Shown: piece after piece, positions 1 through 34,119 of the stretch
How positions within the stretch are numbered: the first letter of the stretch is position 1
Layout: each line of letters starts with the position of its first letter
Virus record (IMG/VR): IMGVR_UViG_3300027805_000045
Location: 1-34,119 of that record
Direction: 5' to 3' (one strand)
DNA from: a virus
Length of the DNA stretch: 34,119 bases
Translations under genes and position numbers: made by a program
Notes under the pieces: model-generated
Databases searched by the model: none
What the model was told of the DNA's origin: nothing
What the model saw: only the letters and a program-made list of their open reading frames with translations

Positions 1-232
1 CAACCTTCTAAATTTCCTGCGTCGCGATGAAAGGGTGCAGGTATGTTGAAGTTTGAGATAGAACTTGTAAATAATCTTCCAAAGCGCCATTTTGCTGGGA
101 TATTACTTTCTATAATATGTTTTTGCCTTTCAAATATTGATGGTGTTATTTCTCTTACAACTTCTTCGGCTTCTTTACAAGCCAATAGCATTGCTTTAAT
201 AAATGTTTGTGCGGTTTTAACCTGATGAACAC
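1..232. repeat. Terminal overlap, left copy
   Basis: These bases recur at 33888-34119 with one difference: C at 106 here, G at 33993 there. The dioxygenase reading frame runs unbroken across the join. This fits an assembly overlap of a circular or circularly permuted genome better than a functional end repeat. The mismatch changes one residue (Ser here, Thr in the right copy), so it is a strain variant or a consensus error. Confidence 0.95.
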
Positions 233-557
233 TCGACATACTTGGGTAAGGTCTGCGCATATGTGGTTTAGGCGGGCAAGAGCCAATGATTGTGCTATAT
301 TGTTTGACTTCGGCTGCACTATCACGCAACCCACTGGAACGTCGCATTTCACTCTTAGGAACTCTATCTGATAAAAGTTCTGCGTTTGCTATTTCAATAT
401 ACTGCCGCAATTTACCCTGTATTTGTTTTATGTAAAACCCAACAGGCTCGCCCTCAAACATAAAGATTGTATCTTCTGTGATGTTAGGTTCTATATGCCC
501 GCATATATCTCCTATTTGTACGTTGTGTTGTTGCTGGATTAGTTCTAATGTTTTCAT
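1..557 (-). CDS. TET/JBP-like 2OG-Fe(II) dioxygenase, N-terminal part (gene split by contig ends)
   Basis: Codons 1-185 and part of 186 of a predicted 257-residue protein whose 3' part is at 33671-34119. The start at 557 overlaps the stop of the upstream glycosyltransferase gene in an ATGA arrangement, which suggests coupled translation. Residues about 1-110 form an N-terminal region without a recognised motif. From about residue 90 the sequence looks like phage TET/JBP proteins. The iron-binding HxD is H177 and D179 in an HRDAGN context (bases 21-29). The distal His and the 2-oxoglutarate-binding Arg lie in the other part. TET/JBP enzymes oxidise the methyl group of 5-methylcytosine or thymine in DNA. 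The neighbouring TET-associated-type glycosyltransferase supports a DNA-modifying role. It could instead be another 2OG oxygenase acting on a sugar or protein, but the context makes that less likely. Confidence 0.72.
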   Translation of the reverse strand, partial: MKTLELIQQQHNVQIGDICGHIEPNITEDTIFMFEGEPVGFYIKQIQGKLRQYIEIANAELLSDRVPKSEMRRSSGLRDSAAEVKQYSTIIGSCPPKPHMRRPYPSMSSVHQVKTAQTFIKAMLLACKEAEEVVREITPSIFERQKHIIESNIPAKWRFGRLFTSSISNFNIPAPFHRDAGNLEG

Positions 558-1384
558 AGAAGTAATTTTTTTCTTGCTATTTCTATATTGTTGTCGCTGC
601 CAAAAATTTTTATATGCGTTCCATAATCCCAATTTTTTTTCTCTGCTATCCGAACAAGTGGATTGAATTTATATGCAAGATAAGTGCATTCCGCTTTACG
701 CAAAGACTTCCTTTCTTCTGTTGAACCAAAACCACCTTTTGTATATCTTCGAAATTCGGGCACAATCCAATTTAATACTAATACGTTATTGTGTCGTATT
801 AGGTTTTCTGCCGTCCATGCTACATCATCTATTAGCTGGGCTCTTATATCAAATTTATAGTTTGATTTTTTCACAAGCCAAAACCTACCATCAGCTAATC
901 CTCTTGTTGTAAATCTGTTCCTTAAGTTTAATGGATTATCGTGCAAACCGAAACCGATTAAGTGTATTTTATTTTTCTCTGCTAATTCTATTAATTTGGG
1001 GAAATATATAAACATTTTTTTCAAAGAAATTATATCTTTGTTTTTGAACCGATATATGTGTTGATTCCCAAAATTTATATCTATCTTTTTTTGGTTGCTT
1101 TGTAAAATTTGTTCGGGAACTGATTTAATTTGTTTAAAATCGTCACACATAAATACTGCCCATTCGCCTTCATCCATCATATCTAATGCGGTATTTCTTT
1201 GATAGGCTAAACCCTTTTCATTATTAGTAATGAACGGCTTGCCATATAAGGTTTTGCCTTTCACAAATTTGTCATAATCTTCGTTAGAATGTATCAAAAT
1301 GCTATGAGCTATATCATTTTCCCACAATGCTTTTGATGTAGTTGCAGTTTCGTACCTATTGTAAAAAAATGTAAATACTTTCAC
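554..1384 (-). CDS. TET-associated-type glycosyltransferase (GT-A-like), 276 aa
   Basis: This resembles the family of phage glycosyltransferases known to sit beside TET/JBP dioxygenases and thought to add sugar to hydroxymethylated bases. The N-terminus has a GT-A-like strand followed by NRY (residues 9-11). Next come a KGLAYQRN motif (57-64) and a hydrophobic strand ending in CDD (80-82), the likely metal and nucleotide-sugar site. IDDVAW (185-190) is followed by TKGGFG (215-220) and a basic helical C-terminus. It overlaps the ParB-like gene upstream by 4 bp and the dioxygenase downstream by 4 bp, so the three are probably translated together. The sugar donor cannot be told from sequence. 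The assignment rests on remembered family pattern plus neighbourhood; a general GT2-like enzyme is the alternative. Confidence 0.7.
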   Translation of the reverse strand: MKVFTFFYNRYETATTSKALWENDIAHSILIHSNEDYDKFVKGKTLYGKPFITNNEKGLAYQRNTALDMMDEGEWAVFMCDDFKQIKSVPEQILQSNQKKIDINFGNQHIYRFKNKDIISLKKMFIYFPKLIELAEKNKIHLIGFGLHDNPLNLRNRFTTRGLADGRFWLVKKSNYKFDIRAQLIDDVAWTAENLIRHNNVLVLNWIVPEFRRYTKGGFGSTEERKSLRKAECTYLAYKFNPLVRIAEKKNWDYGTHIKIFGSDNNIEIARKKLLL

Positions 1385-1968
1385 AACTTATTCTTTTCTT
1401 CTTTCAATTTTTCTATCAAAAACCCGCCGATATATAATTTTTGTTCTCGCCAAAATTTTACCAGTTCTTGCGCTTCTTCGTAATGTTCAGGTTCAAATTC
1501 TATTTGAATGGCTTTGCGAACCGAACTTGCCATCTCATTCATTTGGTCATCTATTTCAATTTCGTCAAGGATAGAATAATCTATTTCTTTTGTGATTGGT
1601 TGGAAATCTGGTATATTCAAACCCCATTCATCAAGGTCTGCAGCCGACCAATTATTCGCAAGGTCGTTCCAATCCCATTCTCCGAAGGATACATTGTCCT
1701 TAATTATGAATTCCTTTTGTTGTTCTTCGCTTAGGTTTGATGCTTTGATGATGGGTATTTCTTTTAATCCCGCTTCTTGGCAGGCTCGTAAGCGCATATT
1801 ACCCCCTAAAACAATCATTTCATCATTGACTACGATAGGTCTAATTTCAAGCATCTGCGGAAACTCTTGGATTGACTTTACCAACTTTTGGAACTTACCA
1901 TCCTTGATTATTCTCGGATTATTTGGGTTTAGTTTGATTTTTCCAATAGCAAATTTTTCTGTTTTCAT
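1381..1968 (-). CDS. ParB N-terminal-like domain protein, 195 aa
   Basis: Residues 8 to about 78 match the ParB/sulfiredoxin-like N-terminal fold. An early strand ends in NPNNPR. After it come an LVKSI helix, a strand (RPIVVNDE) and the signature GGNMRLRA (55-62), then an EIPIIKA strand. Residues 82-118 (IIKDN, then a W-rich stretch ending in DEWGL) look like the helical extension seen where this domain precedes phage or plasmid DNA methylases. No methylase domain follows and no ParB helix-turn-helix or ParA partner is present, so plasmid-style partition is unlikely. Stand-alone ParB-like domains can be CTPases or nucleases and occur in DNA-modification clusters. Its place between glycosyltransferase genes, with 4-bp overlaps on both sides, suggests a role in the modification step, perhaps DNA targeting or nucleotide chemistry. 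Confidence 0.75.
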   Translation of the reverse strand: MKTEKFAIGKIKLNPNNPRIIKDGKFQKLVKSIQEFPQMLEIRPIVVNDEMIVLGGNMRLRACQEAGLKEIPIIKASNLSEEQQKEFIIKDNVSFGEWDWNDLANNWSAADLDEWGLNIPDFQPITKEIDYSILDEIEIDDQMNEMASSVRKAIQIEFEPEHYEEAQELVKFWREQKLYIGGFLIEKLKEEKNKL

Positions 1969-2588
1969 ATTATTTTGTAATTGTTAGTTGATAGATAAAT
2001 TCCTGTTTGTTCTGCCCATAGTTTATCGCACTTCATTAATCCCTCATCTTTCATTCTTCTATAAGGTGTGTCTTGCCCTACATCGTGACCTATGTGTTCA
2101 GCCGTTAAGCCACCTAAGTAATAATTCAAATGCCCTGTTTGCTGAAGCCTAAATGAATAATCTCTATCCTGCATTCCATACGGGTCGTACACTTCGTTAA
2201 ACTTTCCTATGGTTTCAATCGCTTTCATCGGTATTAAAACATTTCCAAACACCGCATCGGCTTTATGAATTGGTATTCCATCTATATAAGTTCTTTCTTC
2301 TAATCCTTCTACACAATGAATACCGCACATACCAGTATTAGGAATTGTTAGTGCGGCTTCTACCATTCTTTGTAGCCAATTCTCGGGCATTAAGATATCA
2401 TTTGCCATCGTAACTATTGCATCGTATTGATAGCTTCTACTTATGCCGTAGTTTATTGCTTTTGATATGCCTTTCATTTCAACCTCTATAAAGTCAAAAT
2501 TGAACCCCGCATTGGAAAAGTTTACGTTCTTTACCCTTTTGGTGTGTTCCTTTCTTTCGTAGTTTAATAAGATTACATTAACGAGCAT
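1965..2588 (-). CDS. Family 2-like glycosyltransferase, 207 aa
   Basis: A compact GT-A enzyme. The N-terminus (VNVILLNYERKE) is the usual first strand. Residues 61-65 (MANDI) sit where the DxD metal motif normally lies, but with Asn-Asp in place of Asp-x-Asp. GNVLIP (115-120) is the usual acceptor-side strand. QDRDYSFRL (140-148) matches the ED-type catalytic region of GT2 proteins, and H165 and H168 follow as likely metal ligands. At 207 residues it is a bare catalytic domain with no membrane segment. It overlaps the acyltransferase gene upstream by 11 bp and the ParB-like gene downstream by 4 bp. It probably uses a nucleotide sugar; donor and acceptor are unknown. It could extend the sugar on DNA or modify virion or cell-surface glycans. 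Confidence 0.85.
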   Translation of the reverse strand: MLVNVILLNYERKEHTKRVKNVNFSNAGFNFDFIEVEMKGISKAINYGISRSYQYDAIVTMANDILMPENWLQRMVEAALTIPNTGMCGIHCVEGLEERTYIDGIPIHKADAVFGNVLIPMKAIETIGKFNEVYDPYGMQDRDYSFRLQQTGHLNYYLGGLTAEHIGHDVGQDTPYRRMKDEGLMKCDKLWAEQTGIYLSTNNYKII

Positions 2589-3054
2589 TGCTTCCGATTT
2601 CTTTTACAGGTACTCCAGCATATTTATAGTAAGGTCTTAAAATAGATTTCTTTCCTACAAATGCAGATGCGCCAATCATACAACCTTCGGGTATTCTTAT
2701 CTTTTGATGTAAGACCGCGTTCAATCCTATGTTACAATTCTTTTCTATTATCGTATGCCCTCCGACCTTTGCGCCACAACTTAATGTAACATTCTCAGTT
2801 AAGATAGCATCGTGACCTACGTGCGCGTGTTTCATAAGATAACAACCTCTCCCAATAATCGTTCTCTTATCCGTTCCGCTATCTACTGTAACCATTCCCG
2901 TTAATCTTGAACCCGACATTATCGTTACCAACCCTTCACAATGCTCATAGCCTTTCCACTCTGCAGGCGCACCAATAATACAATAAGGACCTATGTAAAC
3001 ATCGGGTTCGATAATTACATTTGGGTAGATTATTGCGGTAGGATGGATATACAT
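2578..3054 (-). CDS. LpxA-like left-handed beta-helix acyltransferase, 158 aa
   Basis: Hexapeptide-type repeats run through most of the protein (IHPTAII, VIIEPDVYIGP, TIIGRGC and similar), typical of the left-handed beta-helix. The segment HAHVGHD (76-82) with GGH at 98-100 aligns in pattern with the catalytic His region of LpxA (HxxHD, then GH), so the active-site histidine appears to be kept as H81. At 158 residues it is much shorter than cellular LpxA (about 260) and lacks the C-terminal helical domain, so it is unlikely to be a true lipid A enzyme. An O- or N-acyltransferase acting on a sugar is the natural reading, given glycosyltransferase genes on both sides. It overlaps its neighbours by 1 and 11 bp. 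Confidence 0.8.
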   Translation of the reverse strand: MYIHPTAIIYPNVIIEPDVYIGPYCIIGAPAEWKGYEHCEGLVTIMSGSRLTGMVTVDSGTDKRTIIGRGCYLMKHAHVGHDAILTENVTLSCGAKVGGHTIIEKNCNIGLNAVLHQKIRIPEGCMIGASAFVGKKSILRPYYKYAGVPVKEIGSNAR

Positions 3055-3218
3055 TAGTTCATTAGTTTTAGGTAGTCGATTTCCTCATCTGCCTTGTCCT
3101 CTATAATTTCTTTCCTTTCGATTGTGTTTATTATGCTTCTTATGAGCCTTTCCTTTTCTTCGCTTTCCAAATGATAACTTTCCAATAGTTCCAGATTTAG
3201 CCATAACTCAACGACCAT
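3054..3218 (-). CDS. Small acidic helical protein, 54 aa
   Basis: I do not recognise this protein. The start chosen (ATG at 3218) gives a compact acidic, helix-rich product. A longer reading to 3302 would add a basic stretch that only arises from the neighbouring 45-residue gene in another frame. It overlaps that gene by 11 bp and the acyltransferase by 1 bp. No motif is visible. Confidence 0.55.
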   Translation of the reverse strand: MVVELWLNLELLESYHLESEEKERLIRSIINTIERKEIIEDKADEEIDYLKLMN

Positions 3219-3345
3219 TTTTCTTTTTGAATTTACCTTGTGCGAGTATAGCCTTGTATGCTTTCTCGGCTTTCTCTTTTGTCTCAAACACACACGCACC
3301 ATTACCGATGCGCCACTTTCCGTTCGAACATTTAATTACTGGCAT
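3208..3345 (-). CDS. Small phage protein of the MPVIKCSNGKWRIG type, 45 aa
   Basis: The product begins MPVIKCSNGKWRIGNGAC, continues with an ETKEKAEKAYKAIL helix and ends in a basic tail. I recognise this layout from many phages of Bacteroidota: a Cys-containing N-terminal hairpin followed by a lysine-rich helix. Its function is not known to me. It overlaps the start of the upstream glycosyltransferase stop region by 14 bp and the next small gene by 11 bp. Confidence 0.7.
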   Translation of the reverse strand: MPVIKCSNGKWRIGNGACVFETKEKAEKAYKAILAQGKFKKKNGR

Positions 3346-4333
3346 ATAACTCTTTTCTTAATTTATTAACCTTATGGAGATTGAAGTTCTCGTTACACCA
3401 TTCGTAATTTGCTAACCCAATCTCTTGTCTATAAATAGCATCGGTGGCAAGTTTTTTAATTCCTTGGTACCAATCGGTTTGCTTATTTACCTTATAGACA
3501 TAAGGCGCAGTATCATAAGGTGGGGTGTTTGAACATATTACAGGTATCTTTTTGCAAGCCGCTTCTAAGATTTTTAGATTAGATTTCATTGCGTTAAACT
3601 TGGTCGCACGCAAAGGAACAACCGAGACATCGGAATCGTTGTAAAAGTTCATATATTCCGTTACAGGCAAGTATCTTCTCGTTCCCCCTAACTTTAACCC
3701 ACAAGTAAAATTTGATATCATCCTATGCCAGATAGCAGCGGAGCCAGCACCTTCATCATTGAATCCGCACAACTGAAAATGCACTTTGTTTTTTAATTGC
3801 ACATCCGAAGCGACTTTCTTAAAAGGGAACTGAATAATCTTAATATCTTCTTCGTGTGTAATGGAGCCTGTATAAATGAATCTTATCTTATCACTTTCGG
3901 TTCTAACATCAACAAATTGGTCCTCATTAAAAGGTAGGGCATTTGGTAAGATAGCTACGTTTGAATTAATAGGTCGTATCTCATTCCAAAGTAATTCATT
4001 GGTACAAGTAACTAAATCAGCTATCTTAATGTGGTCAATAATTACTTGGCTTGGATATACCGAGTATAAAATATGAGAAGTATCTAAATACCAATAATCA
4101 TCGATATCAACAATTAGCTTAAAGCCGTATTTACTTTTATATTCTAAGAGTTTATCGATGTGCGTATTCGGGATAAAACGATTGATTAAAAGAATATCGA
4201 ACTTTTCCTCTAATACTTCTTCGGTTAATACATCGGTAAAATACGCATACGTTTTTTCCAAATAGTAAACAGGTAGCATAAGCCTATGATAGCCGACACC
4301 AGAGTTCTGTTGTGTTATTACAAGTATTCTCAT
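3332..4333 (-). CDS. GT-B (family 4-like) glycosyltransferase, 333 aa
   Basis: Two Rossmann-like halves are visible. The N-terminal half begins MRILVITQQNSGVGYHR, a typical donor/acceptor-fold strand with glycine loop, and contains VDIDDYWYL (75-83), a motif seen in glycan glycosyltransferases. The C-terminal half starts near IRFIYTGSITH (150-160) and holds SNLKILEAA (251-259), where K254 and E257 fall at the usual nucleotide-sugar-binding site. IPVICS (263-268) follows as the next strand. No membrane segment is seen, so it is probably cytosolic. It overlaps the gene upstream by 4 bp. Like the GT2 protein, its acceptor may be modified DNA, a phage structural protein or a host surface glycan. 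Confidence 0.85.
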   Translation of the reverse strand: MRILVITQQNSGVGYHRLMLPVYYLEKTYAYFTDVLTEEVLEEKFDILLINRFIPNTHIDKLLEYKSKYGFKLIVDIDDYWYLDTSHILYSVYPSQVIIDHIKIADLVTCTNELLWNEIRPINSNVAILPNALPFNEDQFVDVRTESDKIRFIYTGSITHEEDIKIIQFPFKKVASDVQLKNKVHFQLCGFNDEGAGSAAIWHRMISNFTCGLKLGGTRRYLPVTEYMNFYNDSDVSVVPLRATKFNAMKSNLKILEAACKKIPVICSNTPPYDTAPYVYKVNKQTDWYQGIKKLATDAIYRQEIGLANYEWCNENFNLHKVNKLRKELYASN

Positions 4334-32139: not shown

Positions 32140-33291
32140 TCAGGCGAAGGAATATTTTCCTTGCCCTGTGTTTCGGGTGTAGTGATGCCAAGCCAAAGCC
32201 AAAGCCATTACGCAGTCATCGTGGAAGCCTTGTGGTGCTGAATACTTAACCCCAGTAGCGGTATATTGATATTCGAATATCTCAAGTTCTTGTGTGATAT
32301 GCCCTTCGGGAAAGGTTATCTTTCTTTGTTGGATAGCCGAGGCAAGACCTTCCATAAGTTGCTGCTTAGAGGTAGAGGTAAACTTAAACCCACTTACGGG
32401 CAAGCCTTCTCTTTGTAAATCTTCGAATATAGGGTCTCCCGCACCCGTTGAATCTATTAACGTAGGCACTTTGGGTAGGTTGCTAATTACTTGTTTTGTC
32501 TGCCGCCAATCCTTTTGAAAGCGGTCAAAATAGCTAACTGAGCCGTTCTTATCCAAGCCTACGATAACAGTATAGTCAATCGACTTCGCTAAATCGATAC
32601 CAAACGCAATAGGAGGCTCGTGGCTGGCTTCAAATGTACATTGCTTGATGTAGGCACTTCCGAACGGATTAGAGGCATTTTCGGCAGGATTAGCCATATA
32701 CTCTTGCTCGAATACAACTTCGGGTAGCTGAAGCCTTGCATCATCAATCTCGGTCTTGTCTATGTGGGGGTTGTCGTAGGTTGTAAACTTAAAGGATTGC
32801 CAATCTTGTTCGCCACCCTTTAGAAATAAGGAATAAAAGAAGTTCTTGCCTTTAGGGGTTGAGATAAACAAGGCTCGCCCTTTGTAATCGGTTAGGGTTG
32901 GTCGGATTGAATTAAGCCAGCCGTTTTCTAAATCAGGGATAAACGAGGCTTCATCTATAACCCCAAAGTGAAACTTCCTACCTCGTAGGTTGTCTAATCG
33001 TTCGCCTGTAAAGAAATAAACCGCACCGCCATTCGGGAACTTGATTGATAGTTCCGACTTGTTAGCCTCAAAAGGTACGGCTTTGCTTAATTGGTCAAAA
33101 AAGACACGAGCCAAATTATAGGTAGGGGTAACGTAGAAAACTTGCTTGCCTTCTAAGGCATTGACTATTATTTCTATTTGAGAAAGTTCCGACTTGCCAA
33201 ACCTGCGCCCAGCCATTACTACGCGAAACCTTGCTGAACTATCAAGGATTGCTTGTTGGTTGGTATGTGGTGTTGGCAGTTCAATCCTCAT
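32140..33291 (-). CDS. terL: Terminase large subunit, 383 aa
   Basis: ATPase motifs: Walker A AGRRFGKS (27-34), Walker B VIDEAS (111-116) and a coupling motif near ISTPKGKNF (143-151). Nuclease motifs: GIDLAKSIDY (231-240, D233), LIDSTGAGDP (278-287, D280) and HDDCVMA (about 359-365, D360). It cuts and pumps phage DNA into the head. At 383 residues it is compact. Its start overlaps the small-subunit candidate by 4 bp. Confidence 0.92.
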   Translation of the reverse strand: MRIELPTPHTNQQAILDSSARFRVVMAGRRFGKSELSQIEIIVNALEGKQVFYVTPTYNLARVFFDQLSKAVPFEANKSELSIKFPNGGAVYFFTGERLDNLRGRKFHFGVIDEASFIPDLENGWLNSIRPTLTDYKGRALFISTPKGKNFFYSLFLKGGEQDWQSFKFTTYDNPHIDKTEIDDARLQLPEVVFEQEYMANPAENASNPFGSAYIKQCTFEASHEPPIAFGIDLAKSIDYTVIVGLDKNGSVSYFDRFQKDWRQTKQVISNLPKVPTLIDSTGAGDPIFEDLQREGLPVSGFKFTSTSKQQLMEGLASAIQQRKITFPEGHITQELEIFEYQYTATGVKYSAPQGFHDDCVMALALAWHHYTRNTGQGKYSFA

Positions 33292-33650
33292 AGAATTGTT
33301 TTGCCATTAACAAATACGACTTCGATTCTGCTATCGCTGCTAACCTGTTGCGTTTCTTTTGGCTTGCCGTAAACCCTTGTTAATAAAGTTTCTACAGAAT
33401 ATAAGCTACCTTTCTCTAAACTCTTTCTCATTGCATTGGCGATTGTTTTTTCCAAGATTGTCGCTTTTGGATTATCCCAAACCTTTTTAAGTTCATCTAA
33501 ATCCATTTGCAGCATTACTTGAATAGTGTCGTTAATCTCGCTGAGTTTGTAGCCTTGCTCCCTAAGTAACGTTACATACTTTTTAGGTCTGCCATTCGGG
33601 TTTCTTACCTCGCCTTTCTTTGCTGGTATTAAATTATGTTCGTTTGCCAT
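33288..33650 (-). CDS. Terminase small subunit candidate, 120 aa
   Basis: The N-terminus has an AT-hook-like NPNGRPKK (18-25), followed by LLREQGYKLSEINDTI and helices, and GKPKETQQ near the end. This pattern is common just before the large terminase in phages of Bacteroidota, where it is taken as the small subunit that recognises the packaging start. There is no direct sequence proof of that role. It begins 20 bp after the dioxygenase stop. Confidence 0.7.
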   Translation of the reverse strand: MANEHNLIPAKKGEVRNPNGRPKKYVTLLREQGYKLSEINDTIQVMLQMDLDELKKVWDNPKATILEKTIANAMRKSLEKGSLYSVETLLTRVYGKPKETQQVSSDSRIEVVFVNGKTIL

Positions 33651-33670: not shown

Positions 33671-34119
33671 TTATTCAAGCCCTTTGAATGCTTTCAAAGG
33701 ATAGAATACAAGGCTATTCCTATATCCACCTTCTTTTGTTGGTACGATAGGAGTAACCCCGTGAACGTTTCGCCAAGCGGGATAGACTAGCATTGAATTG
33801 TCGCTGCTATCCATTGTTGCAGCATAATCGGGTACGGTAGTATTACCGCCTGTTGCATTTTCCTTTTTCGCAATGATTACATTTACACAACCTTCTAAAT
33901 TTCCTGCGTCGCGATGAAAGGGTGCAGGTATGTTGAAGTTTGAGATAGAACTTGTAAATAATCTTCCAAAGCGCCATTTTGCTGGGATATTAGTTTCTAT
34001 AATATGTTTTTGCCTTTCAAATATTGATGGTGTTATTTCTCTTACAACTTCTTCGGCTTCTTTACAAGCCAATAGCATTGCTTTAATAAATGTTTGTGCG
34101 GTTTTAACCTGATGAACAC
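33671..34119 (-). CDS. TET/JBP-like 2OG-Fe(II) dioxygenase, C-terminal part (gene split by contig ends)
   Basis: This is the 3' part of the 257-residue protein that starts at 557; within this copy the frame is open back to 34119, and position 34078 corresponds to M123. H177, D179 and N182 lie in the overlap copy (iron site, HRDAGN). The rest supplies H228 in VHGVTP, the second-sphere GGYRNSLVFY with R242 (the likely 2-oxoglutarate contact) and the usual C-terminal strand. PAPFHRD, GGNTTVPDY and HGVTPI follow the order of phage TET/JBP enzymes. The gene ends 20 bp before the terminase small-subunit candidate. Confidence 0.72.
   Translation of the reverse strand, partial: VHQVKTAQTFIKAMLLACKEAEEVVREITPSIFERQKHIIETNIPAKWRFGRLFTSSISNFNIPAPFHRDAGNLEGCVNVIIAKKENATGGNTTVPDYAATMDSSDNSMLVYPAWRNVHGVTPIVPTKEGGYRNSLVFYPLKAFKGLE
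33888..34119. repeat. Terminal overlap, right copy
   Basis: Same 232 bases as 1-232, except G at 33993 where the left copy has C at 106. Removing one copy gives a circle of 33,887 bp with an intact dioxygenase gene. Confidence 0.95.

Follow-up and report, generated by a model that had tools for sequence, protein, structure and literature searches.

A TET/JBP-like dioxygenase gene lying beside a putative glycosyltransferase gene, in a viral genome that appears to lack a DNA methyltransferase, raises the question of which base these enzymes modify and what they attach to it. T-directed TET/JBP chemistry has so far been shown in kinetoplastids. Phage TETs are reported, in the work of Burke et al. 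in 2021, to act on 5-methylcytosine (5mC) and to pair with TAGT-type glycosyltransferases. The window analyzed here, a virus record of 34,119 bases taken at its full length, carries such a pair of genes, for which the original prediction had left the substrate open between host 5mC, thymine and a new base; comparative evidence now favors thymine. We consider it probable, judging from gene content and homology, that the genes belong to a post-replicative DNA-base hypermodification cassette, in which TET/JBP hydroxylation, most likely of thymine, would be combined with an interchangeable cap.

Identity of the dioxygenase and the adjoining glycosyltransferase

The ends of the record overlap by 232 bp and close into a circle of 33,887 bp (Table 1). 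The only mismatch in the overlap makes dioxygenase residue 151 either Ser or Thr and reflects strain variation or assembly noise. When the ends are joined, a single stop-free frame of 257 codons opens on the minus strand. Relatives whose dioxygenase gene sits away from a contig end carry, over residues 1-257, an uninterrupted, indel-free gene of the same length (L003, 92% identical; L005, 88%), so the junction is genuine and the gene does run across the contig ends, as had been proposed.

Table 1. Features of the window, with the evidence for each assignment
Feature	Coordinates	Strand	Evidence or remarks
TET/JBP-family Fe(II)/2OG dioxygenase, N-terminal part	1..557	-	start codon at 557; crosses circular junction
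GT-A-fold glycosyltransferase, cap slot, remote TAGT (PF20691) relative	554..1384	-	AlphaFold, Foldseek, intermediates
ParB N-terminal-domain protein	1381..1968	-	PF02195 E=1e-7; most constant neighbor of the dioxygenase
GT2-like glycosyltransferase, optional member	1965..2588	-	PF00535 E=7e-5, just below cut-off
Hexapeptide acyltransferase, optional member	2578..3054	-	PF00132 E=4e-19
GT-B-type glycosyltransferase, optional member of same gene string	3332..4333	-	PF13692 E=2.9e-6; phrog_7162 E=2e-62
Terminase large subunit (TerL)	32140..33291	-	tblastn to annotated TerL genes
Probable terminase small subunit (TerS)	33288..33650	-	DUF5681 sub-threshold; position before TerL; directly downstream of dioxygenase
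TET/JBP dioxygenase, C-terminal part	33671..33887	-	33888-34119 duplicates 1-232
Terminal overlap	1-232 = 33888-34119	.	1 mismatch, position 106

Searched with profiles, the joined 257-residue protein matched Tet_JBP (PF12851) with E=1.4e-7 and 31.4 bits, which is 3.5 bits under the curated cut-off of 34.9 bits; it was not placed in a non-DNA family. The L003 dioxygenase scores above the cut-off (35.5 bits), and all 28 relatives in the family alignment match the profile, the best with E=7e-15. The double-stranded beta-helix HxD...H metal site and the distal Arg for 2-oxoglutarate are present, the key residues being H177, D179, N182, H228, R242, Y248 and L250; H177, D179, H228 and R242, the four named in the original prediction, are invariant in 33 aligned family members. 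Fold comparison made use of an AlphaFold model of the L003 dioxygenase, 92% identical to that of the window, with a pLDDT of 82 and residues ~71-113 poorly modeled. Its 22 best PDB fold matches consist only of TET2, CMD1 and CcTet, with NgTet1 just behind and FTO and AlkB ranking lower. A PDB sequence search with dioxygenase and glycosyltransferase profiles returned no meaningful match, and fold comparison alone worked. Profile, fold and residues agree that the window dioxygenase is a TET/JBP enzyme, as anticipated. It is under strong purifying selection, with a dN/dS of 0.07-0.08 against L003 and L005; the corresponding values are 0.08 for the glycosyltransferase and 0.10 for ParB.

PHROG and RefSeq label this dioxygenase family "queuine tRNA-ribosyltransferase", a label that is wrong; the present assignment corrects a misleading annotation. 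In L108 (NC_020847.1, 15790-17914), we identify CPAG_00033, a "DNA methylase" in RefSeq, as a ParB_N-type protein and CPAG_00035, the "queuine tRNA-ribosyltransferase", as a TET/JBP enzyme; PHROG 6059 seems to be mislabeled as a family.

The dioxygenase and glycosyltransferase genes overlap by 4 bp (554/557), just as had been claimed, and the glycosyltransferase gene overlaps that of ParB, which lies upstream, by another 4 bp (1381/1384). The glycosyltransferase could be modeled with a pLDDT of 92, and the nearest structures found by Foldseek are TarP, GalNAc-T2 and WrtF, all of the GT-A fold. An acidic metal/nucleotide-sugar motif (D81, D82, D187) accompanies this fold, and R10, R63, N64, D81, D82, G144, D187 and G218 are nearly invariant in 63 members. 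The layout of TET-associated glycosyltransferases that had been attributed to this gene is weak when judged directly (17.5 bits against PF20691, cut-off 27.5 bits) and holds by way of intermediates in the same slot. TAGT is matched at E<=0.01 by 7 of 26 close relatives, which match no other family; several same-slot TAGT members score above the cut-off (L249, 56.1 bits; L196, 53.6; L246, 45.1; L209, 34.1); and BLAST links the window protein to the TAGT-type slot set (L250, E=1e-32; L209, E=2e-6). Because the sub-threshold profile match is bridged by above-cut-off intermediates in the same operon slot, the protein is a remote TAGT relative and not a formal member of the Pfam family. A tblastn search with it against phage records gave no match.

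A larger unit with an exchangeable cap slot

The original prediction had described a pair of genes. Both genes do adjoin, but the unit is larger and extends to ParB, the terminase genes and a cap slot whose occupant is interchangeable: in 265 loci from IMG/VR and cultured phages, the gene order is ParB - cap - TET/JBP - TerS - TerL, with ParB present in 239 of them and the TerL cluster in 206. ParB lies within five genes of the dioxygenase for 176 of 196 distinct dioxygenases. Residues 1-145 of the window ParB match positions 33-182 of the 633 in phrog_498 (E=4e-28), and since this related family is labeled DNA methyltransferase, the match suggests that ParB proteins of this type partner with base-modifying enzymes.

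We took a census of the slot between ParB and TET/JBP in the 196 distinct dioxygenase loci. An FkbM methyltransferase is the commonest occupant (82 loci), followed by a glycosyltransferase in the order ParB-GT-TET (56) and by kinase/amidotransferase/ADDT modules (20, of which three contain an additional GNAT-like gene); one locus has a kinase alone, three have other genes and 14 have an empty slot, the remaining 20 being truncated or without ParB within five genes. ADDT (PF18724) and a P-loop kinase occur in the cap slot of relatives and also in cultured actinophages, and neither PF18724 nor a kinase was found among the scanned genes of the window. On a tree of 99 dioxygenases, a quick tree with moderate support, the cap changes at least 18 times, which is far from random and far from once. 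L004, the sister of the window and its nearest relative on the dioxygenase (93%), carries an FkbM cap, and the dioxygenases from ADDT loci fall on the tree among those from glycosyltransferase loci (L010 with L011). A profile of the window-type glycosyltransferase had 0 matches in 32 searched records with FkbM, ADDT or other caps; this profile covers the window subfamily only and also missed six TAGT-type records. The cap slot is interchangeable among related phages, hundreds of which keep the same hydroxylase, and all cap types (sugar, methyl, amino acid) suit a hydroxymethyl group.

The FkbM-domain profile is of the O-methyltransferase type. FkbM was also considered as a supplier of 5mC and rejected, as it matches the FkbM-domain profile and not that of C5-methyltransferases, and as it alternates with glycosyltransferase and ADDT genes, which are unable to supply a methyl group. 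In L255 and L259, only a P-loop kinase lies between ParB and the dioxygenase, with no ADDT in the slot, and the product is perhaps a phosphorylated hydroxymethyl base. Two loci with an empty cap slot, L080 (6048-6689) and L251, encode a small C5-methyltransferase-like protein (~213-244 aa) upstream of ParB.

Whether the glycan genes upstream of ParB in the window (1965-4333) are linked to the cassette is uncertain, because two of them, one being the GT2-like glycosyltransferase, also accompany the FkbM cap in L004. The hexapeptide acyltransferase could acylate a cap sugar. Glycosyltransferases in 140 records of large phages of Escherichia and Klebsiella, including Phapecoctavirus and Justusliebigvirus, are ~30% identical to the GT-B-type protein.

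Thymine or cytosine as substrate

Thymine appears to be the likely substrate of the dioxygenase, favored because C5-methyltransferases are rare, because ADDT occurs in the same slot and because the His or Arg at the position termed R+8 below has been lost. The competing view, which we regard as unlikely, is that the enzyme oxidizes 5mC, as the characterized phage TETs do, so that 5mC from the host, or occasionally from the phage, is converted to 5hmC and then glycosylated. It agrees with the 5mC substrate and TAGT-type partners of characterized phage TETs, which are also cited in PMC12730594, and it can draw on C5-methyltransferases encoded by some relatives and on an Asn that matches TET2 Asn1387.

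A six-frame search of the window found no C5-cytosine methyltransferase, in keeping with the original statement that no DNA methyltransferase is encoded. Among 126 records, PF00145 was detected in 14, a lower bound since many of these records are fragments; the argument is carried by the records of 30 kb or more, in which it was found in 8 of 43 and absent from 35. Controls of the search were positive in 10 of 14 genomes. No C5-methyltransferase was found in any of the seven cultured phages checked (MED4-184, Tonitrus, LilMcDreamy, Cinna, Lilmac1015, S-CBWM1 and Cr30). The records that have the gene differ in cap type, with no evident pattern. The cassette system does not include a phage-encoded C5-cytosine methyltransferase, which counts against 5mC as the substrate.

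To compare base pockets, we used offsets from the metal Asp (D) and the distal Arg (R), which follow from residue numbers in PMC11040006 and from the numbering of TET2 and NgTet1. The residue at D+3 reads N4 of 5mC (TET2 Asn1387, NgTet1 Asp234, CMD1 Asp350), an aromatic side chain at R+6 (TET2 Tyr1902) forms a stack with the base, and a further base contact comes from R+8 (His1904 in TET2, His297 in NgTet1, Arg393 in CcTet) (PMC11040006). The phage family retains Asn182 (D+3) and Tyr248, whereas R+8 is Leu in 99 of 104 phage-family sequences, including the window (Leu250), and the base-reading His or Arg of the characterized eukaryotic 5mC enzymes is absent. Because Leu250 replaces His/Arg, the R+8 side of the base would be read differently from these enzymes. 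Leu at this position would fit a different base without proving one; Asn182 by itself agrees with either base, and its side chain could serve both.

A further point against the 5mC reading is that ADDT swaps into the same cap slot. ADDT reportedly comes from hydroxymethyluridine-based hypermodification, described by Lee et al. in 2021, and to our knowledge it is known only from 5-hydroxymethyluridine chemistry. Because the dioxygenases of ADDT and glycosyltransferase loci interleave, assigning each cap its own base would require the pocket to have switched repeatedly. For the window, which contains no thymidine-specific enzyme, the case for thymine is carried over from ADDT-bearing relatives. 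A thymidylate-synthase-type hydroxymethylase (PF00303), the mark of nucleotide-level hydroxymethylation as in T4 and SPO1, is absent from the window and was matched in 1 of 22 records (Cr30 only); the hydroxyl must therefore come from elsewhere, and the dioxygenase is its natural source.

A target other than DNA, be it RNA, a surface glycan or a phage protein, is very improbable. The extra glycosyltransferases and the acyltransferase in the gene string are typical of surface-glycan chemistry, and FTO and AlkB do appear lower in the fold list; however, all 22 top matches are TET-family DNA dioxygenases, the partners are ParB, an amino acid:DNA transferase and terminase, and cassettes with an FkbM cap have no glycosyltransferase in the slot. 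That the pair is a remnant or a chance neighborhood without joint function is hardly credible, as the variable slot and its emptiness in 14 of 196 loci are set against dN/dS values of 0.07-0.10, the 4-bp overlaps and a ParB-GT-TET order shared by more than 50 distinct dioxygenases.

Predicted pathway and relation to known systems

In the pathway that we propose for thymine, the dioxygenase would hydroxylate the 5-methyl group of a pyrimidine in replicated phage DNA, most likely of thymine, giving 5-hydroxymethyluracil in place. The reaction would be analogous to that of JBP in base J synthesis, with activity and base predicted from the observed family and fold. The adjacent GT-A enzyme would then put a sugar on the hydroxyl, an assignment of donor and acceptor suggested by its fold and slot. 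Less firmly, extension or acylation of this sugar may fall to the remaining two glycosyltransferases and the acyltransferase. ParB, a DNA-binding protein consistently linked to the dioxygenase, probably recruits it to DNA or to particular sites. Because the cassette genes lie just upstream of terminase, modification may take place shortly before packaging and would shield the DNA from host nucleases. Relatives with an FkbM cap are predicted to make a 5-methoxymethyl base, and in others a kinase and an amino acid:DNA transferase would replace the sugar enzyme.

A broader generalization can be offered only tentatively, namely that widespread phage cassettes free of C5-methyltransferases use ParB to direct a thymine dioxygenase while the final base depends on which capping gene is plugged in. 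If so, the commonest version, with FkbM alone, would produce 5-(methoxymethyl)uracil, which we do not know as a natural DNA base, and the version in the window would produce a bacterial-virus counterpart of base J. If the cassette reading proposed above is right, T-directed TET/JBP chemistry would be common in freshwater and marine phages, DNA armor would diversify through a fixed hydroxylase whose caps (sugar, methyl, amino acid) are exchanged by recombination, and new enzymes for writing modified bases would be at hand. Sequenced isolates carry the cassette, which makes the proposal testable in Prochlorococcus phages MED4-184 and P-HS2 and in Arthrobacter phage Lilmac1015.

A ParB/TET/terminase layout has been predicted before, in print, for actinobacteriophages, in which ParB - TET/JBP - aGPT-PPlase/ADDT - kinase operons occur (Rhodococcus phage Tonitrus, Gordonia phage CaiB, Mycobacterium phage LilMcDreamy). 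ParB, TET/JBP and an ADDT/kinase set in Tonitrus form a predicted thymidine hypermodification system (PMC11955845), and in CaiB a series of ParB, TET/JBP, pyrophosphorylase and kinase before terminase was read as nucleotide modification (PMC9302106). The window shares with these operons the closeness of the ParB-like and TET/JBP genes, gene overlaps and the position before terminase, and, with Tonitrus and LilMcDreamy, the lack of a C5-methyltransferase. It differs in that its glycosyltransferase stands where they have the transferase and kinase, in a dioxygenase that is only ~25% identical and in its host, probably of another phylum. The window portal is closest to that of Nonlabens phage P12024S, on which basis the host is probably a member of the Bacteroidota; a scan of bacterial and archaeal genomes found no relatives, so prophages gave no host assignment. 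Scanning IMG/VR with the Tonitrus dioxygenase likewise found no relatives. In LilMcDreamy (L117, 2656-3759), an aspartyl/asparaginyl-hydroxylase-like protein (PF05118) comes right after ParB, TET/JBP and ADDT, possibly for a second oxidation of the added group.

As in the phage 5mC TET/TAGT systems reported by Burke et al. in 2021, a TET/JBP enzyme adjoins a TAGT-related glycosyltransferase, but the window lacks a C5-methyltransferase and has ParB in the unit. With the kinetoplastid base J pathway (JBP1/2 and a glucosyltransferase) it would share the proposed logic of thymine dioxygenation followed by glycosylation, whereas its dioxygenase is a separate short phage protein. Closer at hand, Prochlorococcus phages MED4-184, MED4-117 and P-HS2 have dioxygenases 54% identical to that of the window, annotated as "queuine tRNA-ribosyltransferase" or hypothetical; MED4-184 and P-HS2 share the ParB - cap - TET - TerS - TerL order, but the Prochlorococcus phages have an FkbM methyltransferase in the cap slot. 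As far as we have checked, the interchangeable cap slot with FkbM as its commonest occupant is new, as is the wide C5-methyltransferase-free distribution in freshwater and marine phages, Prochlorococcus isolates included; priority for parts of the cassette findings may lie with Iyer 2013, Burke 2021 and Lee 2021.

Arthrobacter phage Lilmac1015 resembles the window in that a single string holds its genes for ParB, TET/JBP and a glycosyltransferase related to TAGT, but the string is not beside terminase and continues differently: a PIG-L GlcNAc deacetylase directly follows the TAGT-related gene (L119, 7403-7993), which suggests a GlcNAc-derived (GlcNAc-to-GlcN) cap. Synechococcus phage S-CBWM1 (L120, 3729-7139) encodes a TET-like protein beside a clear TAGT (40.6 bits), together with a capsule-biosynthesis phosphatase and a glucose-1-phosphate thymidylyltransferase, and has no C5-methyltransferase in its 139 kb; it is possibly another methyltransferase-free TET/TAGT system, which may make its own dTDP-sugar.
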